From the NCBI GenBank assembly GCA_002355455.1, contig AP017375.1, positions 3,100,001 through 3,164,000 on the forward strand: a DNA stretch of 64,000 nucleotides, given 5' to 3'. Positions 9,755-36,134 of the stretch are shown piece by piece. Each line of letters starts with the position of its first letter. Position 1 is the stretch's first letter. The position numbers and the translations under genes were made by a program. Origin of the DNA: Stanieria sp. NIES-3757 (lineage in GTDB: Bacteria > Cyanobacteriota > Cyanobacteriia > Cyanobacteriales > Xenococcaceae). Below the pieces are notes generated by a model. The model did not search any database. It saw only the letters and a list, made by a program, of their open reading frames with translations, and was not told where the DNA came from.

Positions 9755-10060
9755 TTAACTGCGCAAACTTTGATATCGATAGAAGTTAAACATATCGAAT
9801 AATCCGCCCACTACACTGCCAACGATACCTAGAATAATTACACCAATTAGTGGTTGTCCGTTACCAAAAACAGCTAAAAAATTTAAAATTCCAATTGCGC
9901 CAGTTTGCCCTAATACTCCAACACCAGGTATATGACTAACAATTAATAAAATTCCTAACATAACTCCGAAAAAAATTATGGGAGTACTAAAACTCATTAG
10001 TGCGGTTACTAGAAGAGAAATTAGGAAATTATTTAAAATTCTCGTATTGTAACTTGTCAT
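9755..10060 (-). CDS. Small membrane protein of unknown function
   Basis: The 101-aa protein has three hydrophobic stretches: about residues 10-45, 50-66 and 70-90. The loop holds a Gly-rich HIPGVGVLGQTGAIG. I do not recognise the family. It is transcribed toward the M48 gene 112 bp away, and its own upstream is about 370 bp without a gene. Confidence 0.6.
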   Translation of the reverse strand: MTSYNTRILNNFLISLLVTALMSFSTPIIFFGVMLGILLIVSHIPGVGVLGQTGAIGILNFLAVFGNGQPLIGVIILGIVGSVVGGLFDMFNFYRYQSLRS

Positions 10061-13823: not shown

Positions 13824-13896
13824 GGGGCTATAACTCAGTTGGTAGAGTGTCACAATGGCATTGTGAAAGTCACCGGTTCGAGTCCGGTTAGCTCCA
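13824..13896 (+). tRNA. tRNA-Ala (anticodon GGC)
   Basis: A full 73-nt cloverleaf folds: acceptor GGGGCTA/TAGCTCC with the G3-U70 wobble pair that identifies alanine tRNAs, D-arm ACTC/GAGT, anticodon stem TCACA/TGTGA with loop ATGGCAT (anticodon GGC), T-arm ACCGG/CCGGT with TTCGAGT, and discriminator A. CCA is not encoded. The transposon begins 32 bp downstream, so this gene is the probable TnsD attachment site. Confidence 0.96.
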
Positions 13897-14135: not shown

Positions 14136-15503
14136 TTATTTAAAATTTAATTCTTGTTTTGCTTTGGTAAAGGCTTTTTTCACTTCCTCATATCTCAATA
14201 GTCCAGGTCGAGAAATTAGCTTTTCTACTTTATTGTGACTGGGATATTTCCCTTCACTATGCAGTTGTTTGACAGCTTCTCGTACTTCCTGACAAGAACT
14301 CTCGATCGCTTGTCGATGTGTGGCTTTTCTGTGTTTGGTGTAGTTGGCTGAGATTACTCGACATAGTTCAGGAAAATGCCTGGATATAGTCCGTCGCTGA
14401 AATTGTAAATCTCTTGCTACTTGTTCCATAGAAGGAGGAGGTATAGTTTCTTTTTTTATGACTTGCTCTAAATATTCTTTTATTTTATCGAGTTCTAGAA
14501 CTTTACTCTTAGCTTTTGATTTTAACTCAGGTGGAGAAGCGATTAAATGTACTTTTTCTGATTCTATTAAATTTTCTTGAGTCAAAAAATTCCAAACTGA
14601 TACTTTTAAACCATAACAAATACGTAATAACATTTCTAAAGTAGGCTGATTTTTTCCTTTACACCATAACCAAACAGTATTTTTTGGCATTTCTAACTGA
14701 CGGGCTAAAGCTGCAATATTTCCCTCAGCGTTTTGTTGAGCGTATCTCATCAAAGATTGACTAATAGTATTTTTAGACCAGGTAACATCACGAGATGAGT
14801 TTTTTATCAGTAACTCTTCAAGATTTTTACTAACCCAAAGATGCCAATTTAGTGTTTCATCTTTTTCCTTAGCCAGTAAACTTTGATCGTATGCTTTCAA
14901 TTCTCCTAGCCACTGTCCACACTGAGAACAGTAACCAGGACGAGTTTTCCAAGCAAGATGATAATTTTTTTTTAAACAGTAAGGACAGAATTCTTGAAGA
15001 GGCAAATTGTGAATAGAACATACGGCTACAGTTTTTAATTTCCAAATCAAAGGTTCGTATATTTCTTCGCTGCGTGTGTGACAATTTCTATAGCATTGAG
15101 GACACCACAATTTATAATCATGAAGTAATTTTCGTGAAGGAATTAATTCTGATAGATTTGTCAAAGTTAGTAACGAAAGCCGATTTTGAAAAGTAAGCTT
15201 TTCTAAAGCATTAACAATATCTAATCCCATTACACCAGTGCCATTAATAGCATCAGTAAAACTATATAGCTTATGTATATCAGCACTACTATATTTTTTA
15301 TCAATAACCGAGCTTACAACCCTTTCCATTAAAATTCCAGGATAAACACAATGAGCTAATGCAAGTCGAGAAATGTAACTGGTAAGACTTTCAATTAAGG
15401 AATTGCCTATCCCTATAGGAGTAATAGAATACAACTTGCTAGACCTTTCAGGTGTACATTGTAATTTTAGGGAGCGATATTTTTTGAAGATTTTATCCTG
15501 CAT
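14136..15503 (-). CDS. tnsD: TnsD: site-selecting TniQ-family protein
   Basis: The 455-aa protein begins with a TniQ domain (ESLTSYISRLA around residue 40) and two zinc-binding clusters (CPQC, CSIHNLPLQEFCPYC, CSQCGQWLG, about 135-205). It continues with a helix-turn-helix (IAALARQLEMPKNTVWLW, about 265-285) and a long C-terminal region with more helical DNA-binding-like segments. The extra C-terminal 115 or so residues distinguish it from the 340-aa TniQ at the other end. TnsD proteins bind a fixed chromosomal att site and recruit TnsC; the tRNA-Ala gene beside the element is the likely site. Its start overlaps the tnsC 3' end by 11 bp, so the two are translationally coupled. Confidence 0.9.
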   Translation of the reverse strand: MQDKIFKKYRSLKLQCTPERSSKLYSITPIGIGNSLIESLTSYISRLALAHCVYPGILMERVVSSVIDKKYSSADIHKLYSFTDAINGTGVMGLDIVNALEKLTFQNRLSLLTLTNLSELIPSRKLLHDYKLWCPQCYRNCHTRSEEIYEPLIWKLKTVAVCSIHNLPLQEFCPYCLKKNYHLAWKTRPGYCSQCGQWLGELKAYDQSLLAKEKDETLNWHLWVSKNLEELLIKNSSRDVTWSKNTISQSLMRYAQQNAEGNIAALARQLEMPKNTVWLWCKGKNQPTLEMLLRICYGLKVSVWNFLTQENLIESEKVHLIASPPELKSKAKSKVLELDKIKEYLEQVIKKETIPPPSMEQVARDLQFQRRTISRHFPELCRVISANYTKHRKATHRQAIESSCQEVREAVKQLHSEGKYPSHNKVEKLISRPGLLRYEEVKKAFTKAKQELNFK

Positions 15504-16683
15504 CTTTATCTATTCCTACTCGATCGCGTTTAGCTCTACGTTGACCGACAGCTTGTTTAGATTTTGGTTTTTGACTAGCTGTTTGATTTGCTCCTGAATA
15601 AGATTGAGATATTGGTTGTGTCCTAGAAATAGGCTCAATACCTAATTCAAGCTCTGTACGAAGTTTTTCAACTTCTCCTTCGATCGCAGCGTAGTTGTTT
15701 TCACCCTCTTTGATTTTTTTGAGGATATTGCGACACTGACCGATAGACAAAGCTCGTCGTTCTAAATGCTTAAGAGTAACTGTTTTTGCTTCGTCCTCCA
15801 TCGCATCGGCAAAAGCATTTCTTGTCCAATTTTTAAGTATTCCTACACAACCCAAACTTCGCTCATAAAGATATTCCCAATCAGATACAAAATCTGGCTC
15901 TTCTTCAATGGGAATCTGAGTCTGAAAATTCCAGACAATACTTTGCCAATCTTCTCTATCTTCAATAAATTTGGCATCATAGCGAGGTAAGTGAATGTAA
16001 AGACTTCTTCTGCTCAATTGATCGCCAATATCATGAAGAGTCAACAGATCGTATGTACCGATCAATCCATGTAAAACTTCTGTTCGGTTAGCCAAAGACT
16101 TGATCGCTTCTGGTACTTCTGTCAGTTTACGTCCACTGGCAACCGCCAGCATATGATGAGCCTCGTCTATAAAAAAAATCTGTGGATGGCGGTGTTTTAA
16201 AGCTTGCTCTAATGCCCAACCTAAATCGGTTTCTAAGATTCTCGATTTAATTGCCAATTTTCCTTCATCAGTCCGATAAATACCATCGACCCCATAATTA
16301 ATTTTGTTTTTGATAAATTCTTCTGGTTCGTGAAGAGCATACAAACAGCGTTTGAGGTGGTCTTTGGCATTAAATAAACCCGATTTTTGCAATACAGCTT
16401 CCACACTGGCTACTGCTAAGTGACCCATATTACTTCTAATTGATTCCCATAGTTTCTCTAAAATCCATTTTTCAGTTAGCTGTCTCAATTTAGTCTTGCC
16501 GACTCCTGTTGGACCGACAATGAAAATTAGCCTTGTTTCTCCACAATGCCGAACTAGAGGCTTGAGGTCTTCAAAAGCTCGATCTAAGAAAGGATGAGCC
16601 ATTGTATATTCATCGTAGTAATTAAGACGATGCTCTTTATTGGCTTTTAATAGCTCTAAAGGAAATTCTCTTTCTGAAGACAT
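15493..16683 (-). CDS. tnsC: TnsC: AAA+ transposition regulator
   Basis: The 396-aa protein has a Walker A motif GPTGVGKT (57-64) and Walker B FFIDEAHH (D173/E174), followed by a sensor-like segment (LHGLIGTYDLL). This is the TnsC/TniB AAA+ ATPase, which forms oligomers on DNA, connects the target selector (TnsD or TniQ-Cascade) to TnsAB, and gives target immunity. The C-terminal 60 residues are basic and Ser/Gln rich. It lies between tnsAB (2-bp gap) and tnsD (11-bp overlap), one operon on the minus strand. Confidence 0.92.
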   Translation of the reverse strand: MSSEREFPLELLKANKEHRLNYYDEYTMAHPFLDRAFEDLKPLVRHCGETRLIFIVGPTGVGKTKLRQLTEKWILEKLWESIRSNMGHLAVASVEAVLQKSGLFNAKDHLKRCLYALHEPEEFIKNKINYGVDGIYRTDEGKLAIKSRILETDLGWALEQALKHRHPQIFFIDEAHHMLAVASGRKLTEVPEAIKSLANRTEVLHGLIGTYDLLTLHDIGDQLSRRSLYIHLPRYDAKFIEDREDWQSIVWNFQTQIPIEEEPDFVSDWEYLYERSLGCVGILKNWTRNAFADAMEDEAKTVTLKHLERRALSIGQCRNILKKIKEGENNYAAIEGEVEKLRTELELGIEPISRTQPISQSYSGANQTASQKPKSKQAVGQRRAKRDRVGIDKDAG

Positions 16684-16685
16684 GA

Positions 16686-19421
16686 TTAATATTTTTTAAA
16701 TCTTTTAAATTTGGGAGGCTCGATCGCATCAGATGAAGACTTCTCTTCTACTGGCATATTTGGTTTCGAGCGAGTGTTAACAGTTTCCTCGACGGTTATC
16801 GTCGGAGAAGTAAAAGGTAGAACATTGGGCGTGCCTCCCTCAATAACTCGAAAAACTTCATGAGTCTGTTCATCGCGTAAACGCTGTTCTAGCAGTATTT
16901 CTTCTGTTTCTGTTTTGGCTAAAAAATTTCCTAATTGCTTGGCTCTAATTTTGTAATTGCCGTGGTGATTTTGATGGCGTTTTTTCAATTCAGCAGTAGC
17001 CAAGCGAATCTCTTTTTCGGAACGTCCTCGAAATAAAGGATAATATTCACTAATACATTCAACCCACTGACCTCGAACATAAACGTAAGCGATTCCCGCA
17101 TTAAAAGGGTCGTATCTAACATCGACCCAATTGTTTTCTATTTCGGGATCGCGCAAAGCATTGTGCCAGTAATCTTTGTACTCTATCTTTACGCCTTTTC
17201 CTGGTCTAACTTTGGCTTTTCCTTGGGATGTGGTGGGTAGAGTTAAAATTTTAAAATTGTTGTCGTAAGCAATTCGCCGAAGATCGCGATTACCAAACTG
17301 TTTGACCCCATTAATAAATGCTTCTCTCGGGCTATAACCATCTAGGGCAGGATGTTCTGTTGTCTCGTAAACTTCGTATGCCCACTCACAAAGATAAAGA
17401 TATAAAAGACCAATATTCCAAAGAGATAGGTTTTTGGGATTAACCGATTTAGTGGCAAGTCTGACTTTTTTGGTAATTTGAGTATTTCCTGCTAAATTGT
17501 AGAGCAACTGTTGATTAGTAGTTCCAAATAATCTTTCGCAAACCCCACTGAATCTGGATTTTGCAGCAGGACGATGCTTAAGAGTACATTCAAACATAGC
17601 TAAAAGAGTCTCAAAATAAGTGCTATGAAACTCTTTACCGTTATCTGTAATGATTGTTTGAGGCAATCGCCCATGACGTTGTACGCAGATTCTTAAAACC
17701 ATCATGCAAGAACGGTATGATGGCGGGTCGTAAGTAATATAAACAGCTAAAATGCTACGAGAAAAGGCATCTACAAGAAAAGTAATCCAAGGTCTTCCCA
17801 AACTTTTTCCTGTTTTAGAACATCTCAGTTCAATATCCGATTGTGTGTGATCTATGTGACAGATATGAAAAGGGAAATCACCATGACGAGGGGTAGTTAG
17901 ATTTAATTCCCAGTAAAATTGCTCTAATTCATAAGCAGCCCGAGAACCTGCTCTTTTGAGAGTTTGTTCGTATCCAGAGTGTTTTTTTATTTCTTTGATA
18001 AAAGTTTTATAGGTGGGTATTTGGCAATCGGGAATTCCAGCTTGAGCGCAAAAATTAGCAAAAGCTGCATAGGTCGATTGTTTTGTTGGTTGTTTTTTTG
18101 TTTCGTAGTGATTTTCAATAAAATCGTCGATTTTATCTAAAATATTTTGAGGCAACCTTCTGTTACGGTTTCCTTTTTGGTGTTCAAAACTAAGTAATCC
18201 AAGATAACCATAACCATACTGATGTCGAGCTTTGTTATATGCTGACAACCAGTTTCTCAAAGACCTTTCTTGAGGAGTATCTCTTCTAATAGGCTCACCA
18301 TTTAAATATGGCTGAATTGAATGATAACGATAATTGGCATCTTTTAAGTCTTTTTCGCTAGCTTGTTGTAATAACTCTAAAGCTTGAGGATCGATTTCAT
18401 TAGTTTTAGTCTTTTGGAAGCTAGTAATTTTTCCTTGGCGAATTAAATTTTCAAAAGTATCTTGAGGAAACTCAATAGACTGATTTTCTGCTGTTTGCAA
18501 AAGTATATTATCTTCGCCAATTAAAGCAATAGTTAGAGCTTTACCATTGTAAATAACAATATTTCCCACATTAAGGTCAATTATTGGAGAAATAACTGTA
18601 TTATTTGTGGCTTGAGAAGCAGTAATAGCACTATAAGATAAAGCCGTAACGCGATCGCAAAATAGTAAACATTTTTCAGGTTCTACTAGAGGGGCAACAC
18701 TTAAATCGAGGTAAATTGTTTCTTGGGCGATCAAATGGTAAATGTCATCAGCCTCGATATTTTCAGAGACATGAAATAATTCTAATAAAGTAATTCCTGG
18801 TTTAGCTTTAATAATTGAAATAATTGCAATAAAACTAGATTCATTAAGTTTTTTTCTGCCTCTTAGTCGATAGTAATCCTCTAAAAATTCTAAGTTTCGC
18901 TGCATTGTCCAATTTACGCTAGCACTCGACCAAATAGAAAAGTCCCACCCAAACCGATTGGCATAATCTTCGGCAGAAGGACAACGCCAATGATTATCAT
19001 CATCTAAAAAATAACGATTGGGATTTTTTTGGGCTAATTTCTGGAGGTTTTCTTCGGTTTTACATTCCCACCAACCTGCACTATCTGTGCGGATTACAAA
19101 AAAATCTGGAGTATAAAAAAATCCAATGTTTTTTCCAGACTCAGATTGATAGCTCAGTTTAAAAGGTGGCGGTTGATCGTAGTATTCCAGAACATCTTCA
19201 TCGTGTTCTAGCTGATAAATGAAGGGCAATTCTACTTTATGCGATTCAAACTGAATCGTAACGCCCATTTTTTGGCTTGAATACCTTCCAGAAACACTTC
19301 GCTTTCCTCCTCCAACTTTACGAGAGGGTTCAGATGAGCGAATAATTTGTATCTCTTGCTTTGCTTCCTCTGATATTTTGTTGCGATCGCACCAATGCTG
19401 AAAATCGTTTTCGGACAACAT
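16686..19421 (-). CDS. tnsAB: TnsAB: TnsA endonuclease fused to TnsB DDE transposase
   Basis: The 911-aa protein joins both cutting activities. The TnsA part (about 1-200) has a restriction-enzyme-like site: E64, D106 in YTPDFFV, and E119-C-K121. The TnsB part shows a DDE triad at D524 (HIDHTQ), D593 (ITDNGKEF) and E629 (GVCERLFG), spaced 69 and 36, followed by a Mu-type C-terminal domain and a Lys/Arg-rich tail. TnsA cuts the 5' strands and TnsB the 3' strands, giving cut-and-paste movement. A TnsA-TnsB fusion is known from type I-B CASTs. It is the first gene of the tnsAB-tnsC-tnsD operon, divergent from the RHH-type gene at 19670. Confidence 0.94.
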   Translation of the reverse strand: MLSENDFQHWCDRNKISEEAKQEIQIIRSSEPSRKVGGGKRSVSGRYSSQKMGVTIQFESHKVELPFIYQLEHDEDVLEYYDQPPPFKLSYQSESGKNIGFFYTPDFFVIRTDSAGWWECKTEENLQKLAQKNPNRYFLDDDNHWRCPSAEDYANRFGWDFSIWSSASVNWTMQRNLEFLEDYYRLRGRKKLNESSFIAIISIIKAKPGITLLELFHVSENIEADDIYHLIAQETIYLDLSVAPLVEPEKCLLFCDRVTALSYSAITASQATNNTVISPIIDLNVGNIVIYNGKALTIALIGEDNILLQTAENQSIEFPQDTFENLIRQGKITSFQKTKTNEIDPQALELLQQASEKDLKDANYRYHSIQPYLNGEPIRRDTPQERSLRNWLSAYNKARHQYGYGYLGLLSFEHQKGNRNRRLPQNILDKIDDFIENHYETKKQPTKQSTYAAFANFCAQAGIPDCQIPTYKTFIKEIKKHSGYEQTLKRAGSRAAYELEQFYWELNLTTPRHGDFPFHICHIDHTQSDIELRCSKTGKSLGRPWITFLVDAFSRSILAVYITYDPPSYRSCMMVLRICVQRHGRLPQTIITDNGKEFHSTYFETLLAMFECTLKHRPAAKSRFSGVCERLFGTTNQQLLYNLAGNTQITKKVRLATKSVNPKNLSLWNIGLLYLYLCEWAYEVYETTEHPALDGYSPREAFINGVKQFGNRDLRRIAYDNNFKILTLPTTSQGKAKVRPGKGVKIEYKDYWHNALRDPEIENNWVDVRYDPFNAGIAYVYVRGQWVECISEYYPLFRGRSEKEIRLATAELKKRHQNHHGNYKIRAKQLGNFLAKTETEEILLEQRLRDEQTHEVFRVIEGGTPNVLPFTSPTITVEETVNTRSKPNMPVEEKSSSDAIEPPKFKRFKKY

Positions 19422-19583
19422 CGAACTATGTCCTTGTAATTCTGCTATTTAGATCATACACAATTTTAATACGTATAATCTAAAAGATTTGTAAACATTA
19501 CTTTACTGATGAAAACGGTTCGTCAAACTCAAATAATCCAGCCCCAACAATTGCAAAAAAACCAATGTAATAAAATATTGAGA

Positions 19584-19597
19584 GACTCAATTGAGTC
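19584..19597. promoter_or_regulatory. Perfect 14-bp palindrome in divergent promoter region
   Basis: GACTCAATTGAGTC is a perfect dyad between the start of tnsAB (19421) and the RHH protein start (19670). It has the size of a ribbon-helix-helix operator. That the neighbouring RHH protein binds it is inference. Confidence 0.55.
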
Positions 19598-19669
19598 ACA
19601 ATTAAATTAAAAATCGAGACTAAACTAAAGAAGTTTTCACCAATTTTTTTGATTAAAAAACTTGTCATA

Positions 19670-20203
19670 ATGCCTAAAGGACAAAAGAAATCGAAAGGAG
19701 TCCCAGAACTTCATGATGAAGTCAAAAAGAGAGTAAATTTGTCCTTAACGCCAACTGCGATCGCGGGGTTAGATCGACTTTCTCAGGAACTCAATTTGTC
19801 GCGCTCGGAATTAGTCGAACAAGTAGGAAGAGGTTCGCTTCCATTAGCCGAGCAAAGTAGCTTATCTGAAGAGTTTGTAATTTCCCTAACACATTCGTTA
19901 TCTTTAACAGAACGCGATCGCTTACCAGAAAAAATGGGTGCATTTTTGGCAACAGATTTTGCTCAGTTTGCCTACTTGGGTTCTAGTTCTAATTTAAAAA
20001 AAAGATTTGCCGAGCAGACTTTTATCGAAAAACTAGAAAAAATTAAAGCTAGTAAAACTCCAAAAAGCTCCGATATTCAAGTCATTTGGATCGAATGCAA
20101 CAACTACAAAGTATTAACTAGAATCGAACAAGAATTATTAGCTCAGTTTCGTCATCTTGTTTTTGTTCAGAATCAATCGTCTAGTCAGGGCAAATTTCTT
20201 TAA
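19670..20203 (+). CDS. RHH-domain protein with GIY-YIG-like C-terminus; candidate transposition regulator
   Basis: The ATG at 19670 (MPKGQKKSKG) is preferred to the TTG at 19649; it gives 177 aa. Residues 18-55 (VKKRVNLSLTPTAIAGLDRL, then LNLSRSELVEQ) match a CopG/Arc ribbon-helix-helix. Residues 100-177 carry YLGSSSNLKKRF, then IQVIWIECNNYKVLTRIEQE, like the GIY-YIG segment of cyanobacterial GIY-YIG proteins, with Tyr, Arg and the late Glu present but the first GIY strand unclear. It diverges from tnsAB across a perfect palindrome. Type V-K CASTs have small DNA-binding repressors next to their transposase genes; a similar role is proposed here. Confidence 0.6.
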   Translation: MPKGQKKSKGVPELHDEVKKRVNLSLTPTAIAGLDRLSQELNLSRSELVEQVGRGSLPLAEQSSLSEEFVISLTHSLSLTERDRLPEKMGAFLATDFAQFAYLGSSSNLKKRFAEQTFIEKLEKIKASKTPKSSDIQVIWIECNNYKVLTRIEQELLAQFRHLVFVQNQSSSQGKFL

Positions 20204-20524: not shown

Positions 20525-21064
20525 ATGGCGTTTGAGCAGGAACTGGACATTTACTTAAGATCGCGCTTTACTCTAATGATCTTGGTAACGCCAGAGGAAG
20601 AGAGGGCATTACAGAGCGTCAAGCAGGTATGCGAGGGGTTCGCTCTTCGCGAGCGCACTCAGCGTTCCTGTCTCAGTTGGGATGTCGCTGATGGGTTTAG
20701 TGCGGTAACTAATTGGCGGGGTTCGATTCCTTCAGCTAAAGACCCCCTTTCGGCATTGGAACAGGTGGATAAAGCTGAAGGAGATAGTTTATTTGTACTT
20801 AAAGATTTTCACGACTGTTGGACTAATCCCCAAATTAAACGTAAACTTCGCAGCGTCGCCCAACGGCTTAAGTTTAGTAAGAAGTCAATTTTGATTACTG
20901 CCCCTTCAGGGAAGATTCCCGTGGAATTGAAAGATGAAGCGGTTATTTTAGAATATCCCTTACCCCAAAATGAGGAACTAGAAACCGTATTGCAAAGATT
21001 GACTCAAACCCTATCATGCAGCCAAAGCCAAATTAGAAGAACAGGGATTTTCTCTCATCAATGA
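20525..21064 (+). pseudogene. Ycf46-like AAA ATPase, N-terminal remnant
   Basis: The first about 160 residues (LDIYLRSRFTLMILVTPEEE, later SIPSAKDPLSALEQV and GDSLFVLKDFHDCW) match the N-terminal, pre-ATPase domain of the Ycf46-like AAA proteins of cyanobacteria and plastids. The frame then runs into DNA coding for a DUF1257 tail in another frame and stops. Walker motifs are all missing, so this is a deletion remnant with an intact start and ribosome-binding site. A small GC-rich palindrome (about 20630-20657) lies within it and seems to add the residues EGFALRER in frame. Confidence 0.7.
20630..20657. repeat. Small palindromic repeat inserted in frame
   Basis: CGCTC at 20641-20645 pairs with GAGCG at 20651-20655, within outer TGCG/CGCA. 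It interrupts the AAA-ATPase remnant without shifting its frame. Confidence 0.5.
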
Positions 21065-21116
21065 AGAAACTCAAGAAGGCGATCGCATTCATCTAGTGTT
21101 ACGACGTGTAGTATAG
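21012..21116 (+). pseudogene. DUF1257 (Ycf35-like) C-terminal remnant
   Basis: In the frame of 21012, the sequence reads YHAAKAKLEEQGFSLINEET and ends ...IHLVLRRVV before TAG at 21114. This is the usual tail of DUF1257 proteins, which sit next to Ycf46-like ATPases in cyanobacteria. The rest of the gene is gone; a deletion has joined it to the ATPase remnant. The following DUF2997 gene is 13 bp away. Confidence 0.65.
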
Positions 21117-21129
21117 GAGCTAATTAACA

Positions 21130-21333
21130 ATGGAACTTCAGGAAATTGATGTCTTTATCGAAAAAGACGGACAGGTAAAGATTGAGATACGGGGAGTTAA
21201 AGGAATGTCCTGTCTGGATTTAACTAAAGATTTAGAAGCGGTTTTGGGTAATCAAATTGCAGCACGAGAAATGACATCCGAATCTCAGGAGGTAGAACAA
21301 GAGCTTCAACAACAGCAATGGCAGTGGGGATAA
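21130..21333 (+). CDS. DUF2997 protein
   Basis: The 67-aa frame is a complete DUF2997 protein: two strands (IDVFIEKDGQVKIEIRGVKG), then SCLDLTKDLEAVLG and a Gln-rich tail. DUF2997 genes are part of the cyanobacterial cluster AAA ATPase (Ycf46)-DUF1257 (Ycf35)-DUF2997, of unknown function. Its two partners here are remnants, so this gene may be a stranded survivor. The conserved Cys of the CLDLT segment is present. Confidence 0.75.
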   Translation: MELQEIDVFIEKDGQVKIEIRGVKGMSCLDLTKDLEAVLGNQIAAREMTSESQEVEQELQQQQWQWG

Positions 21334-21400: not shown

Positions 21401-23521
21401 CTAACAACCTAATAACTCGCTTGGTTGACCGTGATAAGTAACCAAAACTTCTTTCTTAGCGCGAGTAGCAGCGACGTGAAGCAAACAGCGATCGCTTTCT
21501 ATCAAAGACAAACGCGCTCTATTATCTGACAAGCGATCAAGTATTCTTTTTGGTGGAAGTTCGTCTTTAGTCAAACCTGCTAAAAGCACGTATTCAAACT
21601 GTAATCCCTTAACTCGGTGCATTGTGGCTACTCTTAATCCTGGAGTTGTCAGATCGTCCGCTTGGCTTCTATGGATTTGGCAAGTTGTGACACCAAGAGT
21701 ATTTAAAGCTTTGGAATAAGAGTCAATTAAAGATTTGGTTCGTAGAATTAAACAACTACTGGATAAAGTATCTTCTTCTCGTTCGATACGTTGAAGTTGC
21801 TCGGTAATATATTTAATTTCATCGTTAAAGGTTGTAAATCCCTTAATTGACGGTTCTTTGCCATGAAGTAAAGAACGATAGTCATTCAAGTCGTTTTGTC
21901 CGCCGTCTAAATCGTCAAAGATAGAACCAATTAAAACTTGAGATGCCCATTTACGAATTTCATCGGTCGTTCGGTAATTTAATCTCAATCTGCGAGAACG
22001 TCCCCGTATTTCAATACCAGAATGACTTAAAACAACTTTATGTTGATAAATGCGTTGGTGAGGATCGCCAACTATAAATAGGTCATTTGGTCCTACTGGA
22101 ATCATCGCTCGTAGTAAGGAAAAAGCTTCTGTACCCATATCCTGGGCTTCATCGACAATTACTGCTTTAAAAGGTAAAGTTTCTCCCTGCTTATTTTTCA
22201 GTAAGCTACAAGCATCTCTCAAAGCAGTTTGTCGATCTTTCCAGCCTTTTTCTTGAAGGAGAGAGTTAAATTCCGCAAATACACCCCAGATTTCGGCTTT
22301 CTTGGCTCGATTGAGTCTAGTACCCCTACCTACTCTTGGTGCTTTTAAATATTCTTTAAGTGTTTTAACTTGGTAGGGTTGAATTACTTCACGCCATTCA
22401 TCTTGATAGAAAGCTAGGGAAAATTCTGGCGCAAGAGTATAAGCTTGTTCCCACAATTGCTCTAAATCGTTTTCGTAAACAATTCGGGCTTTAATTCCTT
22501 CTTGTTTGAGAAAATTCACTACCCAACTATCGATATTTTCTACATGAATCCGACGCATTATCTCTGGAGAACAGATTTTGCGTAAGTTATTTTCAATATC
22601 GATCGCTAAATTGCGAGTATAAGTAGTAAAGAAAATACGATCTGTAGATAAGGTAAAACGATGTTCTGCTAGCCATTTAGCTCGGTGCATGGCTACTACA
22701 GTTTTTCCCGTACCCGCGCCCCCTAATACTCTTACTGCCCCATTCCACTCTTTTTCTACCAAACGACGCTGAGTTGGATGGAGAAAGACGCGCCATTTTT
22801 CTAAAGGTGCAGCCAGCATTTCTTCTAATTCGGCATCATCTTCGACGATATAAAATCTACGCTTACTATCATTTGTTTCCAAAGCTGCATCGAAGTCTTC
22901 TGTATTAATTTGGCGATCGCTTTTTTTGTCCTGTAGATTTAGCACATCATCTAGGGAGTAACCAGCAGCGAGTAATAAAATAGCGTCGGCAGCTTCTTCT
23001 GGTAATTTGGAAATTAATTTATCTACATCATCATCGGTAATAACAGACCGAACTGCTGCTAATAATTCTTCGGGTACTCCCAAGCGTAATAAATGGCGAT
23101 CGTGAATATCTGCAAATCTTTTTTTGGCGGATGTTTTAGCCTTTGCTTCTATTTCTCTTTCAATCGCTGCTACTTCTTCGACATCAATAATTTGTAATGC
23201 ACCAGATTCGGGATTAATTTTACAAACTCTTCTTTGCGCCCATTGATAAGCTCGATCGTGATTATCTACCCATAATAGTAGATAAGTATTACCAGTTTCG
23301 GGTTTGAGAACGATCGCTCGATAGCTAACGTCGATTCTGACGGATTTGAGATTTTTATCGGCAGCATTTTGGATTGATTCGTAGTTAATGCCCGAACTAG
23401 TAGGATTTTGTTTAAATTTACTAATAAAAGCATTGGTTTTAGCTTGAGTCTGTTTGGTTAGCTTACTAAAAGCATCTAAAAAGTCAGTAGCGATCGCCAT
23501 TCGGATATTGTGGTTTAGCAT
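21401..23521 (-). CDS. UvrD/Rep-like helicase with RelE-like N-terminus
   Basis: The 706-aa protein begins with a RelE/ParE-type toxin-like fold (about 1-115: ATDFLDAFSKLTKQTQAK, NLKSVRIDVSYRAIV). Residues 250-700 are an SF1 helicase: Walker A GGAGTGKTVVAMHRAK, Walker B VIVDEAQDMG, motif III GDPHQRIYQ, motif IV LRLNYRTTDEIR, and the C-terminal HRVKGLQFEYV and VAATRAKKEVLV motifs. It would unwind DNA with 3'-5' polarity. It is last in the cargo operon, preceded by an AGTAATA repeat. The RelE-like domain keeps the KSVRIDVSYR segment but the toxin catalytic residues cannot be judged by eye. It may act as an RNA/protein recognition part. Confidence 0.8.
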   Translation of the reverse strand: MLNHNIRMAIATDFLDAFSKLTKQTQAKTNAFISKFKQNPTSSGINYESIQNAADKNLKSVRIDVSYRAIVLKPETGNTYLLLWVDNHDRAYQWAQRRVCKINPESGALQIIDVEEVAAIEREIEAKAKTSAKKRFADIHDRHLLRLGVPEELLAAVRSVITDDDVDKLISKLPEEAADAILLLAAGYSLDDVLNLQDKKSDRQINTEDFDAALETNDSKRRFYIVEDDAELEEMLAAPLEKWRVFLHPTQRRLVEKEWNGAVRVLGGAGTGKTVVAMHRAKWLAEHRFTLSTDRIFFTTYTRNLAIDIENNLRKICSPEIMRRIHVENIDSWVVNFLKQEGIKARIVYENDLEQLWEQAYTLAPEFSLAFYQDEWREVIQPYQVKTLKEYLKAPRVGRGTRLNRAKKAEIWGVFAEFNSLLQEKGWKDRQTALRDACSLLKNKQGETLPFKAVIVDEAQDMGTEAFSLLRAMIPVGPNDLFIVGDPHQRIYQHKVVLSHSGIEIRGRSRRLRLNYRTTDEIRKWASQVLIGSIFDDLDGGQNDLNDYRSLLHGKEPSIKGFTTFNDEIKYITEQLQRIEREEDTLSSSCLILRTKSLIDSYSKALNTLGVTTCQIHRSQADDLTTPGLRVATMHRVKGLQFEYVLLAGLTKDELPPKRILDRLSDNRARLSLIESDRCLLHVAATRAKKEVLVTYHGQPSELLGC

Positions 23522-23529
23522 CTTCTTTT

Positions 23530-23565
23530 AAGTAATAAGTAATAGGTAATAAGTAATAAGTTTTA
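23530..23565. repeat. AGTAATA-type intergenic repeat, copy 1
   Basis: AGTAATA units (AGTAATAAGTAATAGGTAAT and following) fill the junction between the UvrD-like gene and the DUF1998 helicase. The same unit recurs at 29909-29941 and 35095-35117, always directly before a large cargo gene start. Confidence 0.75.
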
Positions 23566-26500
23566 ATTGGCTAGATGTTGATGATAAAAGGCTTCTGGGT
23601 TATTTAAGACTTCGGCTATAGTTAGTGTTGTCCAGTTGTTTTGGGTAAAGATTTCAGTTTCGCTTGAATCTATTACTAAAGCTAAGTAGCGATCGCTCCA
23701 GGCTAATTCTGCTTCGGCAATAACTGTATCGGTATCATCGGTAAGTTCATATCCTACTTCGGGTACTTGCCAGTTATGGATTGCCATATAATCAATTAAA
23801 GCGATCGCATCTGGCTCGAAGACAAGGGTTTTAATCTGTTCCCAAATCGGATCGCTATTATTTGAAGGTTTTTCCCTATCTGTAGGAGGCGGAAGCCAGA
23901 ATTGTCCCAGTTCTGTTTCGTCTTCAAAACCACTGGAGGTAACTATATAGCTGTAATCGAGGAACTGGAAGAGGTTGTATTGCCGTAAAACTCCAGTCCA
24001 AGCTTTGACTATCTCATCATCGATTTCGCGAAAGCGATCGCTAAGAGATATCACCATTAAAGAACTCTTACCGTCTTTAGAATTAAACTTCTTCGGATTA
24101 ATCGCTATATAAGATTTAATCAAAGTATTAGATTGTGCTGAATTCCAACTCAAATTAGCTAAATAATCAGAAAGATCGAGACCGAAGCTATTAATTATTT
24201 TTGAGTCTATTAAGTTAATTACTTCTTGTTCCCAGAGATGGCGATCGCTAAGATTTTGATATTGCTCTTGTTGAATATAAGCAAAACTTCTTAATAAAGC
24301 CCATCGCTGCCATAATTGACGCTCGGGATTGCTCAGATAATGGATCAGCCAAATAAAGCTATCTTTGTCTTTTAAATGCCGTAACTGTTCGCAGTTGGAT
24401 TGTTGATAAAGTTTATTTTGATTACTGCGAAATTTTTCACTAAGCTCTTGGGTTAAAAGATTGACATAAGCCCCTGCTTGGGAATTGAACTGAGACTCGA
24501 CATCAGACCAAGTGAGTGACCAAACGTGAAAATTACTACTTTTAGCGATCGCCATTCTTTGTTGAAAATCTTGTGATAAGCGATCGCTGTGGTATTCCCA
24601 ACCATCGGTAAAGATGGCGATGGGTTTGATGTTGGGCGATTCTTTAACAGGATAAAAAACAAAATCGGCGCGACTGGGAATAGCTACTCCATGATTCTGG
24701 TCTAGTTCTACTTGAGGTTCGATCTGCCAGTTTTGTTCGCCAATAGAAAGTAAATAACCAGGTTTACCATTAATTACTTCTTTACGGAGAATAGTAGGTC
24801 GGTCTTGATAGCGATAACGGCTTAAAGCATCGATAAAACGCTGTTCGAGAACGCTATCGAATAGGGCATTTAATTTAACAGTAGATAATCCCGACTCTAA
24901 AGTAGTAATTTTGTTTTTACGGGTAACAATGGCATTGAGAATTGCGATCGCACTACGACGGCTGGTTTTATCTTGTTCAAAGTTATTGCGATAGGCAAAT
25001 ACGCAGTCATAACAGCCATCTTCACAACTACAACTGCGAAGAACGGTAAGAGCTTCTTCAAATACAGAAATCAATTCATCCCGATTGCGGAGTAGTTGTT
25101 TGAGATAACCAGTACCTCCTGGTACGGTGTCGTAAAGGAACAGAAAAGGTCTGCGTAGGGAACTGTTGGGAGAAGGTTCTTCACTAATAAGAGTCCGCAG
25201 GTGATCTACTCCTCCTTGAAAGTGAAGTTTTAAACCCAACTGTAAAGCAGCAATAAATGAATGCAGTTGTATGGGAGAGTTCAACGTATCGACTGGTAAC
25301 AACATCCGAATTGCTTCTGATTCAAATTGCCGAAATAGATAGAGAACATCCATAAAATGGCGCGGATCGTCGCTATTTTTATGAATACAAGCAAGAGTAT
25401 GATTTGGGCGTCCCGCGAAGCGGATCTCTTCGAGATCGCCTCCATTTTGGACTTTGCCACAACTGCGACAGACACTAAAACCAGACCTGGCACGGGCTAC
25501 GCCAGCAATTTCTACGGTTTCTGCCTGGCTGGTAATTTGACCGAAGTTGATTTCGCGGAAGGTAACTCGCGAGAGAAATTCAAAGCCAAAGGGAAATTCT
25601 TCTTCGTCTATCAAATAAGACTGTTCCCTAACGATGGGGTCGAAATCTGCTAGTAATTGTCTGGTAAAAAAAGCTGGAGTTCGTTCGTCTCTGTCGTCAC
25701 CAATACGACTATCGCGATCTTTAGTAGTTGCCATTACTTGACGCAGCCGTACCATTTTACGTTTGCGCCCTTCATCCGACCACATTACATCACCACAACG
25801 GGGACAGGTTCGCTGTTTGGCTTCTTGGTAAATATTGGGAACGGCGTAACTACAGTTACGACAAAATCGCCATTCTTCTATTTCCGAAAGATTGAGATCG
25901 ATTTGATCTACGTTGACGCGACGACCTTCGGCGTAAAATTTTCCAGAAGGAACGAGTTCCCCAATTGCTAATGCGGATGGACGTTCGTATTCAAAGGTAA
26001 AGGTTTCATATTTACCCGTAGAACTATTTCCACTAGTATTTCTGCGTCGCCAGATAATTGATTTGAGAGTTACCCCAGCTTCAGGAAAAGCATAGTTAGG
26101 AAGTAACCCTTCGTCGGTGAAAAAATTGAGGGTATTTTTGTTGTTGATTCGCTTCACCAAATCCATGAAGCCCTTTCGTTCTCGTTTTAACTCTTCCAGT
26201 TCTTCTTCGTGGTTTTGGGATTTAGCACCATTTTCTTTCTCTTTTATGCGACGAGCGAGCGTTCTAATTTGATTTTGCAGTCTTTTTCTTTCTTCTACTA
26301 CTTCTTGAAGTCGGTTGAGAATGCGCCAGCGTAACCCCCCTTCATCTCGTTCTCCTTGGGAGATAAACATTTCTAATTGCTGTTGAGTGCGATCGCCAAT
26401 TTCTTGGGCAAATAGTCGAACAAAACCATTTAATAGTTGTTCTCTTTCGCGATCGATAAAACTCAACCAAGTGTAGGGAAATCGATTGAGGTCGCCCTGT

Positions 26501-29500
26501 TGTACTGATGCTAAAACCCGATTGAAAATTTCTGGTAAGTCTAAAGTATTTCCTTCCCGTGCAATCCAACAATCCAAACAATAAGCAGTTAATTGACGCT
26601 GGAGAATTGCCGAAGCATCTAAATAACAACCTGGGGTTTCTACTCCTCCCGCAATCATTTTGAGGGGGTCAGACCAAAAGTAGAGGTCGTGATTGGTACC
26701 GTTGGCAATAGTAGTAACAAAGGCATTGCCATCTCGTCTTCCCGCCCGTCCGATTCTCTGTTGGTAGTTAGCTTGTTGGGGAGGAACAGAACAGAGTAAG
26801 ACAGAAGATAAATCCCCAATATCAATCCCCATTTCTAGGGTAGAGGTGGCAGAGAGTAAATTGGGGTCGGAACGATTTTGACTGTTAATAAAGCGACGTT
26901 CTAGTTCTTCTCTTACTTCTCTTTCTAAAAGTCCCGTATGTTCTTGAGCGAAGATATGCCAGACATTGCCTTTGGAGTAGAGATTTTTATAGAAATTTAG
27001 TTGTCGATTATTGTCTATTTGATACCGTCCCTGACATTGGGATTGCAGACAGGACATTTCTTGCCAGTAAGCTAATTCTGTAGGCGAACTGACGATACTA
27101 TGACGGCAATGAGAACAAGAGAGATGAATCGTTTGGGTATCCAGTTGCAAGGCTGCTAAATTAATTCCCCAAACTTTGGCGTTTTTATTAGTATAGCGAT
27201 CGCCTAAAATTCCCAATTCAACTAGAGTATTAAAAGTATGTTGATAGATTACTGGTATTTGTTCGCCAATTAAAGTAGCTTCTTGAGGATCGAAGAAGTT
27301 TTTAAATGCCCAATTTTCCCACCAAGGAGTAATTTTTTGTATAACTGGTTCAAACTGTTCATGGCTTCTCGCTTCTATGGGATAAACAGGTTTTATCGAA
27401 GCTGGTCCTATACCAGGCATGAAAATCTGATTTTGCAGAAGGTAAAATTTTCCATCTTGCTGAATTGAGATATCTAAGAGGCGATGTAAGATTCCGCCTT
27501 TTTGCCTGATGTGATAAATGATGCCTAAGATAAATTGTTTTATCTTTTCATTTCCAAGATGATGCAGTCCTAGTTCATTTTTGAGTTTAATTAATACTTC
27601 TGCTGTAGCTCGATCTAATTGTTCGAGATTAATTCCTATTGCACAAGTACCCGTTTTTTCTAAAGAACCGCCAAAGGAAGTTTTGAGACTTAATTCGGAA
27701 ATAATTTCCCAATCCAAACGGCGATCGCATAATTCTTTGAGATTGGCAGAACAAGTTCCTTTTTGTTTTAGTTCTTCCCATTCCCCCAACCACTCTAAAT
27801 CCGAGGGAATAAAGGTAGCGACATAATCGGTATCCGAACCTAATTCTTGTCGCCAATAAGTTTTAAAATCGGGAATAATTTGCTCTAAATTCTTGCCGTT
27901 ACCCTGACGGTCTAAATACTGTTTCAGGGCAGTACGTAAAGTAGTACGGAAGGTACGGGCAGTAAAAAAGCCAGCACGATGGGCTGCATCTTGTACCGAA
28001 TCGGAAAAGGTAATTAATTTGCGATCGTCGTTGTAGCTAGAAGCAAACAGTGTGCCAATGGCAGCACTAGCTAAACTAGCAGCGCGAGAACCCAAGATGG
28101 CTAAATTGTTTTTTGCGCCACAAATAGGACAATCATGACTGGATTCGCGCCATCTCGAACCGTTACGGTTAACTTCTCGAATGAGGTTGGGTTCGGTTAC
28201 GGATAATAACTGCTGGCTACCACAGGTATGACAGTAGGTGGCACTAGAAATATTTAAACTGAGGCAATTAGAACATAATTTCTTTCTTTCTCCTTGTTCC
28301 TGTCGCCGTCTTTCCATATCTTCTTTAGCAGGAAAAATAAAAGAAATCAGAGGACTTTTACTAAAAAAAGCCTGGTAAAAATCTTTTAAGTTACAGCCAA
28401 TTTGGCGATCGCTTTGTTTGCGACGCAATCCACCCCAACCAGTAGCACCGCATTCGCGACAGTGGACTAAAGGTAAATTGCGCCCTTGTTCCTCATTGGT
28501 TAGATCGTCAGCAAAAGTTAGTTCGGGGCGATCGCTGATATTAGCTACCATACGCCGTAATTCCCTCAGCCAGAGTTGAATGCGGATATTCGCCCAAGGA
28601 CGGTTATTAATATTTCGTGCCAGGGAAAATAAAGCTGCCAAACTCGTAAGTAAAGCGGTTTGATATATTGTAGGGGCGATTGGCGAATCGCCCTTACTCT
28701 CAGGAAGACGCATTTTGCGACTCAACTGCGCCCAAAGAGAAGGTAAAGAAGTAGGTTCGCCTGAAAGGATTTTTAGTAGGTTATTAACTATGGGTAGAGA
28801 TTTTAAGCGATCGCCTAATTCAATACGCCACTCCATTTCTTGCCAATCATCGGTAAGTTCGCGATCGAACCATAACTGATATTGAGCGCGGATGTATTTT
28901 TCTACACTGTCATAGTTTTGGGGTAGTAAAGAGTCTAGTAACTCTGGACTGGGGACTGGTTGCGGATCGATAAAGGCATCGGCTAAAAATTCGGCTGCAC
29001 TCAACCTATCTTCGGTAACGATAGCGTTATTATTGAATGTCTCATTAAATATCTTTCCTGCATAGCTTATTAATTCATTCCCCGTGTCTTTATTTCCGCC
29101 TAAAGTTGCCGAAGTTCCCACACAAGCCAAATGATTCGCGGGTGTTTGCAAACGAGCCTTGAGACGACGAATCAAACAGGCTAAATCTGTTCCCTGTGCG
29201 CCATCAAAAGTATGAATTTCATCTACAACTAAATAGCGTAGAGTTTCGGGACTATTACCAACCCATAACCCTTGGTCTTTAGGACGAATCAGCAGATAGT
29301 CCAACATTTTGTAGTTGGTTAACAAAATATCTGGGGGACTTTGGCGCAGAATATCTTTACTGGTAATTACTCCCGTTTCTGTCATTACCGAAGTGGGTTC
29401 GCGATCGCTTTCCCCCACAAATAAACCAGCCGTAATATAACCTTTGAGGTTGGAATTGTGCCAAATTAACTGTGCTAACCTTTTAGCTTGGTCGGTAGCC

Positions 29501-29904
29501 AAGGCATTCATGGGATAAATTAAGATTGCCTTGATACCTGGTTCGCCCCGATATTTAAAACAGTGGTCAAGGATCGGCATCATAAAACATTCAGTTTTAC
29601 CCGAACCCGTACCAGTAGCGACGATAGTTGACTGATAATCAGGGTGTTGCAGTCGCCCGAATGCTTGTTCTTGATGGCGATGGGGAGGAAAAGCCATCGG
29701 TACGTCGGGAAAATAATCGATTCCCGAAGTTCCCGATCTAAAAGGCAGACTGGCAGATAAATATGGTCCTTTAAAAATTGCTTCTGGATTATCTAAAAAG
29801 CGATCGATTAAATCTTCAAAACCAGGAGAAGACGAGCGAAATTCGGTCTTTAAAAAATCTGTAATGCTGGCTTGGATTTCTGTTGCTAATACTGAAGGAA
29901 TCAT
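23563..29904 (-). CDS. Giant DEAD/DEAH helicase with DUF1998 and nuclease-like domain (DrmA/DrmB-like)
   Basis: The 2113-aa protein opens with an SF2 helicase: Q-like region, Walker A ATGTGSGKTECFMMP (about residue 95), VVDEIHTFDG, and motif III GTSATLG. The second RecA fold near 1040-1110 has SATSTLEMGIDIGD and QQRIGRAGRRDG. Several Cys pairs suggest zinc ribbons (CRECG, CSNCL, CRNCSY, CPRCG). A DUF1998 block near 1560-1700 contains FLYDTVPGGTGYLKQL and CSCEDGCYDCVFAYRN. After it, about 1770-1850, RADFVFYP, IFTDGWEYH and VWSLTWSDVE look like a PD-(D/E)XK/Vsr-type nuclease. It could act like DrmA and DrmB of DISARM combined in one chain. Two small palindromes are in frame inside it (25406-25440 and 28674-28693). 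Confidence 0.75.
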   Translation of the reverse strand: MIPSVLATEIQASITDFLKTEFRSSSPGFEDLIDRFLDNPEAIFKGPYLSASLPFRSGTSGIDYFPDVPMAFPPHRHQEQAFGRLQHPDYQSTIVATGTGSGKTECFMMPILDHCFKYRGEPGIKAILIYPMNALATDQAKRLAQLIWHNSNLKGYITAGLFVGESDREPTSVMTETGVITSKDILRQSPPDILLTNYKMLDYLLIRPKDQGLWVGNSPETLRYLVVDEIHTFDGAQGTDLACLIRRLKARLQTPANHLACVGTSATLGGNKDTGNELISYAGKIFNETFNNNAIVTEDRLSAAEFLADAFIDPQPVPSPELLDSLLPQNYDSVEKYIRAQYQLWFDRELTDDWQEMEWRIELGDRLKSLPIVNNLLKILSGEPTSLPSLWAQLSRKMRLPESKGDSPIAPTIYQTALLTSLAALFSLARNINNRPWANIRIQLWLRELRRMVANISDRPELTFADDLTNEEQGRNLPLVHCRECGATGWGGLRRKQSDRQIGCNLKDFYQAFFSKSPLISFIFPAKEDMERRRQEQGERKKLCSNCLSLNISSATYCHTCGSQQLLSVTEPNLIREVNRNGSRWRESSHDCPICGAKNNLAILGSRAASLASAAIGTLFASSYNDDRKLITFSDSVQDAAHRAGFFTARTFRTTLRTALKQYLDRQGNGKNLEQIIPDFKTYWRQELGSDTDYVATFIPSDLEWLGEWEELKQKGTCSANLKELCDRRLDWEIISELSLKTSFGGSLEKTGTCAIGINLEQLDRATAEVLIKLKNELGLHHLGNEKIKQFILGIIYHIRQKGGILHRLLDISIQQDGKFYLLQNQIFMPGIGPASIKPVYPIEARSHEQFEPVIQKITPWWENWAFKNFFDPQEATLIGEQIPVIYQHTFNTLVELGILGDRYTNKNAKVWGINLAALQLDTQTIHLSCSHCRHSIVSSPTELAYWQEMSCLQSQCQGRYQIDNNRQLNFYKNLYSKGNVWHIFAQEHTGLLEREVREELERRFINSQNRSDPNLLSATSTLEMGIDIGDLSSVLLCSVPPQQANYQQRIGRAGRRDGNAFVTTIANGTNHDLYFWSDPLKMIAGGVETPGCYLDASAILQRQLTAYCLDCWIAREGNTLDLPEIFNRVLASVQQGDLNRFPYTWLSFIDREREQLLNGFVRLFAQEIGDRTQQQLEMFISQGERDEGGLRWRILNRLQEVVEERKRLQNQIRTLARRIKEKENGAKSQNHEEELEELKRERKGFMDLVKRINNKNTLNFFTDEGLLPNYAFPEAGVTLKSIIWRRRNTSGNSSTGKYETFTFEYERPSALAIGELVPSGKFYAEGRRVNVDQIDLNLSEIEEWRFCRNCSYAVPNIYQEAKQRTCPRCGDVMWSDEGRKRKMVRLRQVMATTKDRDSRIGDDRDERTPAFFTRQLLADFDPIVREQSYLIDEEEFPFGFEFLSRVTFREINFGQITSQAETVEIAGVARARSGFSVCRSCGKVQNGGDLEEIRFAGRPNHTLACIHKNSDDPRHFMDVLYLFRQFESEAIRMLLPVDTLNSPIQLHSFIAALQLGLKLHFQGGVDHLRTLISEEPSPNSSLRRPFLFLYDTVPGGTGYLKQLLRNRDELISVFEEALTVLRSCSCEDGCYDCVFAYRNNFEQDKTSRRSAIAILNAIVTRKNKITTLESGLSTVKLNALFDSVLEQRFIDALSRYRYQDRPTILRKEVINGKPGYLLSIGEQNWQIEPQVELDQNHGVAIPSRADFVFYPVKESPNIKPIAIFTDGWEYHSDRLSQDFQQRMAIAKSSNFHVWSLTWSDVESQFNSQAGAYVNLLTQELSEKFRSNQNKLYQQSNCEQLRHLKDKDSFIWLIHYLSNPERQLWQRWALLRSFAYIQQEQYQNLSDRHLWEQEVINLIDSKIINSFGLDLSDYLANLSWNSAQSNTLIKSYIAINPKKFNSKDGKSSLMVISLSDRFREIDDEIVKAWTGVLRQYNLFQFLDYSYIVTSSGFEDETELGQFWLPPPTDREKPSNNSDPIWEQIKTLVFEPDAIALIDYMAIHNWQVPEVGYELTDDTDTVIAEAELAWSDRYLALVIDSSETEIFTQNNWTTLTIAEVLNNPEAFYHQHLAN
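25406..25440. repeat. Small palindromic repeat inserted in frame in the giant helicase
   Basis: GATCTC-ttc-GAGATC (25423-25437) in a GC-rich patch. On the gene strand it adds residues like DLEEIRFAGRP between a zinc-ribbon CGKVQNGG and PNHTLAC, a site where neighbours would normally run on. Confidence 0.55.
28674..28693. repeat. Cyanobacterial GGGCGATT palindrome inside the giant helicase
   Basis: GGGCGATT pairs with AATCGCCC across a 4-base loop. On the gene strand it encodes GDSPIAPT-like residues, a known signature of short repeats in cyanobacterial coding regions. The frame is kept. Confidence 0.6.
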
Positions 29905-29908
29905 TTAA

Positions 29909-29941
29909 TAAAGTAATAAGTAATAGGTAATAAGTAATAAG
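29909..29941. repeat. AGTAATA-type intergenic repeat, copy 2
   Basis: Identical in layout to copies 1 and 3; precedes the giant helicase start on the minus strand. Confidence 0.75.
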
Positions 29942-29949
29942 TTTTTAAT

Positions 29950-30315
29950 TTAGTTTTCTTTTAGTTTTTTAATTGATGCGGTCAATATTTTGATTATTTC
30001 TTCTAGTTCTTGAAGCATGGGAGTAAATTTGGATTCAGTCACGATTTGCGATTTAATCATTAGATTTATCCAGTACCTAGTTTCATTTGCTTCTTTGAGA
30101 GATATTGAATATTTGTGAATAAAATCATTTCTTGATTGGGCATAAACAGCTTCAGAACAATTTGCTCCAATAGAAGTGCCAGAGTGTAAAAACTGTTTTG
30201 ATAGAACTTTTCCCGCATCATCGTATTTTCTTTTATTGAGTTCCACATAAGCTTTAATAACTCTGATTGCAAAATTTTCTGCTCTTTCTTGTATTGATAA
30301 ATTTGAATCACTCAC
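29950..30315 (-). CDS. Four-helix-bundle protein (S23/IVS-like)
   Basis: The 121-aa protein is all helical and matches the 23S-rRNA-intervening-sequence/Avd-like four-helix-bundle family: NFAIRVIKAYVELN, LSKQFLHSGTSIGANCSEA, QSRNDFIHKYSISLKEANET, RYWINLMIKSQI. Proteins of this kind occur in intervening sequences and as Avd partners in retroelements, and also in defence islands where they are of unknown role. It is embedded between the methyltransferase and the giant helicase with short gaps, so it is part of the operon. A stray AGTAATA repeat follows it. Confidence 0.75.
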   Translation of the reverse strand: MSDSNLSIQERAENFAIRVIKAYVELNKRKYDDAGKVLSKQFLHSGTSIGANCSEAVYAQSRNDFIHKYSISLKEANETRYWINLMIKSQIVTESKFTPMLQELEEIIKILTASIKKLKEN

Positions 30316-30329
30316 AACAAATTTACTTA

Positions 30330-35078: not shown

Positions 35079-35094
35079 CTTTTTTAAGTAATAA

Positions 35095-35117
35095 GTAATA
35101 GTTAATAAGTAATAAGT
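35095..35117. repeat. AGTAATA-type intergenic repeat, copy 3
   Basis: AGTAATAAGTAATAGTTAAT with a following AGTAATAAG, directly before the methyltransferase start. One base differs from the other copies. Confidence 0.75.
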
Positions 35118-35232
35118 TGGAGTTATTAATCATCCACTACTGCTTAAAACTGCGACTATTTTGATATAGAACCCATTTGACATCTTCCAAGTATGGACTT
35201 AAAGTTCTCGAAAGTATCAAAATTCATTGACC

Positions 35233-36134
35233 ATGAAGTATTCCAGTAGCCTTAGCGATGAAGAATGGGAAATTCTAGAACCCCTGTTAGTTAAGATATT
35301 GCCGACTAAGAAGCAAACCCGACCTGCCAATTGGACAAGGCGAGAAATCCTTGACGGAATACTCTATCAACTCAAAAATGGTTGTAATTGGGCAGACTTG
35401 CCCAAAGATTTACCTCCCTACTCAACTGTCTATTGGCACTACAAGCAGTGGCGAAAGGTAGGGGTGTTTGAAAAGCTCATGAATGCCTTACATGAACAAG
35501 TACGTCAGCAGGTTAAAAAAAACCTAAGTGGACAACATTAATAATCATTGACTCTCAAGCCGTGAAAAATACCTGTAATGCCAGTGTCGCTTCCAAAGGC
35601 TTTTGTTTTTACAAAGCCACGAATGGGATTAAAAGACATCTGGCAATTGATACACTGGGATTTCCTTTCTTTACCCACTGCACACCAGCAAATGTCTCGG
35701 ATGATGCAGGATTGATTGAGATGCTGACGCTAAATATTGACTATTTCCAGTCAAAACCCGTTAACCTTCCGAAGCTCACTATTTTGCTAGACCACGGATA
35801 TCATCCCGAACATTTGACTGAGCAATTGGAGCAAGTTTATCCCGAGATCATGACGAAAATCAAGTTTGAACTGTCCACCAAACCCTCGAAACAAGAGAAG
35901 GCAGCGCAAGGGAAATCTGGATTTGTTCCTGCTGTTGCTCGCTGGGTGATTGAACGCTCAAACGCTTGGATGGAGCGTTGTAAAAGTTTGGTTAAAAACT
36001 TTGAGCGCGAGATACGCGGAGGTTTCCTCCGCTTGTAGAATCGCGCTGTTGAGCGAACTTTATCTCATGCGACTGCCAAGATCGATCTCTGCTTCGTCAG
36101 ATTAATGCTTAAGCGGCTTTCAGTCTCTTCGTGA
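35233..36134 (+). pseudogene. IS5-family DDE transposase, frameshifted and interrupted
   Basis: The first frame from the ATG at 35233 gives an N-terminal DUF4096-type DNA-binding domain (SDEEWEILEPLL, CNWADLPKDLPPYSTVYWHY) to a stop at 35541. A run of eight A at 35515-35522 can allow a -1 shift into the second frame, which reads LIIIDSQAVKNT (first D), ILLDHGYHPEH (second D) and RWVIERSNAWMERCK (E). Programmed -1 frameshifting at such A-runs is known in the IS427 group. A 48-bp palindromic insertion (36007-36054) adds an in-frame TAG at 36036-36038; the original end at 36132-36134 (KRLSVSS) is still visible. The element is probably inactive. Confidence 0.8.
36007..36054. repeat. 42-bp palindromic element with TTGAGC duplication
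   Basis: Outer arms GCGCGA (36005) and TCGCGC (36041), inner arms GCGGAGG (36016) and CCTCCGC (36026) fold into a hairpin. TTGAGC at 36001 is repeated at 36049, as a target duplication would be. It interrupts the transposase. Confidence 0.75.

Follow-up and report, generated by a model that had tools for sequence, protein, structure and literature searches.

An RHH protein with a decayed GIY-YIG domain is the probable autoregulator of a type I-B2-like CAST in Stanieria

Type V-K CASTs carry three kinds of regulator facing cas12k, encoded in reverse orientation to it: the RHH proteins Arc_1 and Arc_2 and the MerR protein CvkR, for which repression was shown (PMC9938897). In the literature searched, coopted CAST regulators are named for types I-F3 and V-K only (PMC11406308, PMC9938897). 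The anatomy of type I-B2 CASTs is described for PmcCAST/Tn7744 (PMC11406308). The 177-aa protein analysed here is encoded by a cyanobacterial element of this last kind, associates an RHH domain with a GIY-YIG-fold domain, and faces tnsAB. It probably acts as a switch restraining the transposase genes.

The host element occupies positions 13929-45251 of the window, the 64,000-nucleotide stretch of the Stanieria sp. NIES-3757 genome that was analysed. It is delimited by terminal inverted sequences, TGTCACTGGAAGCATAACTTTTC at 13929 and GAAAAGTTATGCTTCCAGTGACA ending at 45251, and each end bears TnsB-site-like repeats; a target-site duplication was not recognised. A tRNA-Ala gene (13824-13896) lies about 33 bp from the left end. 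The minus strand encodes a fused TnsA-TnsB transposase (tnsAB, 16686-19421, 911 aa, with Pfam domains Tn7_TnsA-like_N, rve and Mu-transpos_C), the AAA/TniB protein TnsC (15493-16683, Pfam) and a 455-aa TnsD/TniQ (14136-15503, TniQ and HTH in Pfam). The same strand carries cas6, cas8 (Csx13/MYXAN), cas7 and cas5 at 39769-43772, assigned with NCBIfam, and a second TniQ of 340 aa (43938-44960) that has tblastn similarity to TniQ/TnsD proteins. A short CRISPR array with four 37-nt repeats is found at 39253-39506, and no cas1, cas2 or cas3 is visible in the list of the element's ORFs. The element is a type I-B2-like CAST: it shares with PmcCAST/Tn7744 the fused TnsAB, TnsC, tRNA-adjacent TnsD, second TniQ and I-B cascade without visible cas1/2/3 (PMC11406308).

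Positions 20525-21333, between the regulator gene and the defence cargo, hold a DUF2997 gene and a 179-aa ORF without Pfam match that resembles, by eye, the amino-terminal part of a Ycf46-type AAA protein; the pair may have been captured from a host operon. Defence-like genes recognised with PADLOC profiles follow at 21401-38980, coding for a UvrD-type helicase, a 2113-aa DruE-like helicase, a 1582-aa type IIG/DrmMI-like enzyme and a DrmD-like SNF2 helicase, with an IS5-like transposase (35227-36038, by eye) among them. Elsewhere in the same genome, a TnsB fragment (L177, G000:C1:385880-386311) with 48% identity to residues 660-804 of TnsAB is the trace of a second, decayed element.

The regulator gene extends from 19670 to 20203 on the plus strand and diverges from tnsAB across 248 bp, which agrees with the initial annotation of a small protein facing the transposase operon. 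Its start codon is the ATG at 19670 and not the TTG at 19649, as the former position is common to the aligned homologues. The RHH (CopG-like) DNA-binding domain proposed in the same annotation is encoded at 19721-19837 (residues about 18-56): Pfam RHH_1 matches residues 21-51 above its cutoff (24.3 bits versus 20.5, E 2.8e-5), as it does in four of the remaining seven distinct homologues. In VIA, the modelled region matches CopG (Z 3.7) and NikR (Z 3.6) over residues 10-59, about 40 residues with low pLDDT. Since the AlphaFold model has a pLDDT of only about 50-65 in this part, the RHH assignment relies mainly on sequence. The domain is under purifying selection, with dN/dS of 0.02-0.14.

Full-length homologues are present in six members of the same family, including the window and genomes G389 (MAG contig L034), G391, G392, G404 and G387, on a plasmid of Gloeothece citriformis and on two near-identical Calothrix plasmids. 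No other full-length copy was found in 386 genomes across the phylum, besides that of the window, or in 27 genomes of the family. All of these adjoin tnsA/tnsAB or CAST cascade genes, which bears out the association with tns genes considered at the outset. In the window, L034, L116, L117 and the Gloeothece plasmid, the gene faces tnsAB divergently; at the two Calothrix loci, where tnsA and tnsB are separate genes in a tnsA-tnsB-tnsC-tnsD set, it faces tnsA in the same way. In L114 it lies upstream of cas6-cas8 in the same direction, in L115 it is co-directional with cas8 and lies about 60 bp before it, and in L117 it stands between tnsAB and cas6, co-directional with the cascade genes. A decayed copy is found near a tniQ in L118. 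At L035:6001-6060 and L121:6537-6596, probably one contig, a 20-codon remnant 95% identical to the regulator amino terminus keeps part of an upstream block at a locus without tns genes; this 20-residue match was excluded from the homologue counts. A phage or virus origin of the regulator was considered and dropped, no relative being found in IMG/VR by peptide-pattern search or in the phage collection.

The position facing tnsAB is not reserved for this protein. About 20 other fused-tnsAB regions were examined, most with nothing obvious at the divergent spot. L059 and L072 have there an RHH protein of 62 or 61 aa (RHH_5 in L059), and L060 an 86-aa XRE-type protein. In the TnsAB tree, L117 groups with the XRE-bearing L060 and not with the window, while its RHH-GIY protein is 61% identical to the window regulator. 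This disagreement between regulator and TnsAB relationships suggests that the regulator was exchanged between elements, and the position seems, from these sequence comparisons, to be a regulator slot open to different occupants. The pattern is that of V-K CASTs, where varied regulators likewise occupy one spot (PMC9938897).

Linkage to both tns and cascade genes could also be expected of a transposition accessory factor, an RHH protein that would bind transposon ends or target DNA, or tether Cascade/TniQ, rather than act on transcription. A role in protein interaction would furthermore explain why a catalytically dead domain (see below) is under purifying selection. We find this reading unlikely: the divergent orientation across a promoter region and the presence, in the equivalent position of related elements, of small RHH_5 or XRE proteins fit a regulator better, and many related elements lack the protein altogether.

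The intergenic region offers several candidate operators. The 14-bp perfect palindrome GACTCAATTGAGTC, noticed in the first reading of this DNA as lying between the two genes, is present exactly at 19584-19597 and has no other exact copy in the window. Its conservation was not borne out: among the homologous loci it is perfect in the window only. In L034, the closest relative, the right half is lost (GACTCAATGAAGCG), the counterparts in L114 and L115 are GACTTAATTGAGAA and GACTCAATTAAGAA, and alignment gives nothing recognisable in L116 and L117. Palindromes of this length are expected by chance, with eight perfect 14-bp ones in the window versus 4.15 expected from a Markov model; 4% of resampled 248-bp intergenic sequences hold one, and 0.3% hold one with at least six G/C. 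The palindrome was therefore rejected as a conserved operator. Its left half-site is conserved inside a block found by alignment and search, TTGAGAGACTCAAT (19578-19591, plus strand), which matches TTGARAGACTYAAT of L034, L114 and L115, and partially L035, and is a candidate operator or promoter element of the regulator gene. A second conserved block (TTARACTARA..CTTTYRCTAAT, 19620-19644, plus strand), identified in the same way and nearer the start codon, is a possible -10/start region of this gene.

On the other side, alignment and motif comparison delineate an imperfect inverted repeat, TAGATCATA...TATAATCTA, at 19450-19482. Its core is ATACACA (TGTGTATGAT, extended -10-like on the tnsAB strand), and the repeat is a candidate alternative operator at the tnsAB promoter. 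ATACACA occurs in five of six RHH-GIY loci and in none of 19 control promoters, an enrichment that is not significant on resampling (some 7-mer equals it in 0.09 of cases, or 0.28 without L034), and the motif was retained as a candidate only. Similarity of the regulator promoter to the element's CRISPR repeat was discarded, as they share no 12-mer. The plasmid RHH-GIY genes are preceded by a single stretch that resembles the 3' end of CRISPR repeats of cyanobacteria, AGGAATTGAAAC for Gloeothece (L123:9963-9981) and AGGAATCGAAAC for Calothrix (L124:9923-9934, and the near-identical L125). It is a possible solo CRISPR repeat and may also be due to chance. The tnsA-regulator intergenic region of L124 has in addition tandem direct repeats CTATACACACTATACACACTATC at about 9865-9890. 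Repeated sites are often bound by RHH proteins.

The carboxyl-terminal half of the protein was described initially as a GIY-YIG-like part. Pfam alone gives a sub-threshold match (E 0.027, residues 100-161), and other lines of analysis bear the proposal out. Aligned with hhalign against five genuine cyanobacterial GIY-YIG proteins, the carboxyl-terminal halves of eight homologues score a probability of 98.9 (E 3.6e-17, for that single profile pair). The AlphaFold model, built from 11 sequences with two annotated plasmid rows left out, has a pLDDT of about 70-83 over residues 80-160 and the strand/helix order of GIY-YIG domains. Foldseek places the UvrC GIY-YIG domain (1ycz) first (probability 1.00, E 0.009), and VIA gives Z scores of 8.8 with a plant glutaredoxin GIY-YIG domain, 8.1 with UvrC and 6.3 with I-TevI. 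By sequence homology and predicted structure, residues about 75-165 (19892-20164, plus strand) thus have the GIY-YIG fold.

The active site is incomplete. The GIY Tyr, YIG Tyr, Arg, His pair, Glu and carboxyl-terminal Asn are invariant in canonical relatives. In the six family members the GIY Tyr is replaced by Phe (F92), and the His pair and the Asn are absent; Y102, R112 and E153 are retained. The Gloeothece and Calothrix homologues keep the GIY Tyr, have Glu in place of the Arg and lack the catalytic Glu. Neither group has the complete Tyr, Tyr, Arg, His, Glu, Asn set of an active GIY-YIG nuclease, the missing residues differ between lineages, and no catalytic combination is common to all homologues. 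The domain is nevertheless under purifying selection, with dN/dS mostly 0.17-0.37, and is most simply read as having a conserved role other than catalysis. The domain is most likely a pseudo-nuclease with a sensor or oligomerisation role, as judged from residue comparison.

An active nuclease or nickase that the RHH domain would aim at a sequence for the GIY-YIG domain to cut, aiding transposition or removing competing copies, is accordingly given little weight. The fold is there, the three residues kept in the family members may allow residual catalysis, and Tsy transposons include a GIY-YIG nuclease as an auxiliary component (PMC10293859). Against this stand the substituted GIY Tyr in the family members, the His pair and Asn missing from all homologues, and the loss of Arg and Glu instead in the plasmid proteins.

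Many cyanobacterial plasmids encode relatives with the RHH domain alone, at loci without tns genes; it is hence the fused form that is tied to transposons. These relatives could suggest cargo or an antitoxin-like orphan caught beside tnsAB, the least probable of the explanations, as every full-length copy is linked to tns or cas genes, including that of a distant Tn7-like element whose TnsA and TnsB are not fused, and Pfam detects no toxin-like partner among the neighbouring ORFs.

We privilege the hypothesis that the protein is a dedicated transcriptional autoregulator of this Tn7-like/CAST element whose pseudo-GIY-YIG domain serves oligomerisation or sensing, with a probability of roughly two in three (0.68); the operator, the repression and the role of the carboxyl terminus are inferred from the features above. 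Both domains, the decay of the active site, purifying selection, linkage to tns and cas genes, the divergent orientation and apparent exchange at a fixed position are observed. The function is most likely that of an autorepressor acting on the divergent tnsAB promoter. The RHH domain would dimerise and bind operator DNA in the 248-bp region, and the bound regulator would repress its own gene together with tnsAB-tnsC-tnsD. In relatives where the regulator gene leads into the cascade operon, the cas genes would possibly be controlled too. The carboxyl-terminal domain would derive from a GIY-YIG nuclease of cyanobacteria whose catalytic activity was lost. In NikR, an RHH domain is followed by a carboxyl-terminal sensor/tetramerisation domain, which has a nickel-binding ACT-like fold. 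The pseudo-GIY-YIG domain would, most likely, similarly provide oligomerisation and/or signal sensing, in response to DNA (an end or a structure), to the transpososome or to a small ligand. Several points weigh against this reading: the palindrome lacks conservation, and ATACACA, the strongest of the other motifs, is non-significant on resampling; many elements with fused tnsAB have no recognisable regulator at the divergent spot; the RHH part of the model has low confidence; and Y102, R112 and E153, retained in the family members, may allow some catalysis.

A narrower and more tentative version of the autoregulator hypothesis, which we hold to be rather less probable, is that the protein represents a family of nuclease-dead GIY-YIG regulators of cyanobacterial I-B2 CASTs and related Tn7-like elements that would sense the state of DNA, such as a DNA end, branched DNA or the transpososome, and then release transposase expression. 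If true, this would be the first regulator described for I-B2 CASTs, and a GIY-YIG domain would have been converted into the sensor of a transcription factor. The sources searched give no account of how I-B2 CASTs limit their own transposition, and a conserved, exchangeable regulator facing tnsAB provides a concrete handle on this self-limitation. It could be omitted or overproduced when I-B2 CASTs serve as tools. The decayed domain is in itself a nuclease fold apparently recruited to regulation.

The GIY-YIG domain of the protein resembles in fold and core sequence the nucleases of this class (UvrC amino-terminal domain, I-TevI, cyanobacterial L101 and L028), with which it has in common W140, C143 and the YIG motif; it differs from them by its incomplete catalytic set and its fusion to RHH. 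The predicted fold of its amino terminus is RHH, as in members of the NikR/CopG family (VIA); its carboxyl-terminal domain, unlike that of NikR, has a GIY-YIG fold, and its operator is only putative. Relative to type I-B2 CASTs as reviewed (PMC11406308), the element studied has the divergent RHH-GIY protein. In the literature searched, no RHH and GIY-YIG fusion was found described as a transposon regulator, and within these sources the novelty proposed initially for such a CAST regulator appears to hold. The parallel drawn at the same time with V-K repressors stands for the position and is an analogy only. Arc_1, Arc_2 and CvkR are likewise small DNA-binding proteins of cyanobacteria encoded in reverse orientation beside a core CAST gene (PMC9938897). 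The protein does not belong with them: they face cas12k whereas it faces tnsAB, in an element with fused TnsAB and a cascade of type I-B (cas5/6/7/8), and the Arc proteins have 53-72 aa and no carboxyl-terminal domain, in contrast to its 177 aa and pseudo-GIY-YIG domain.
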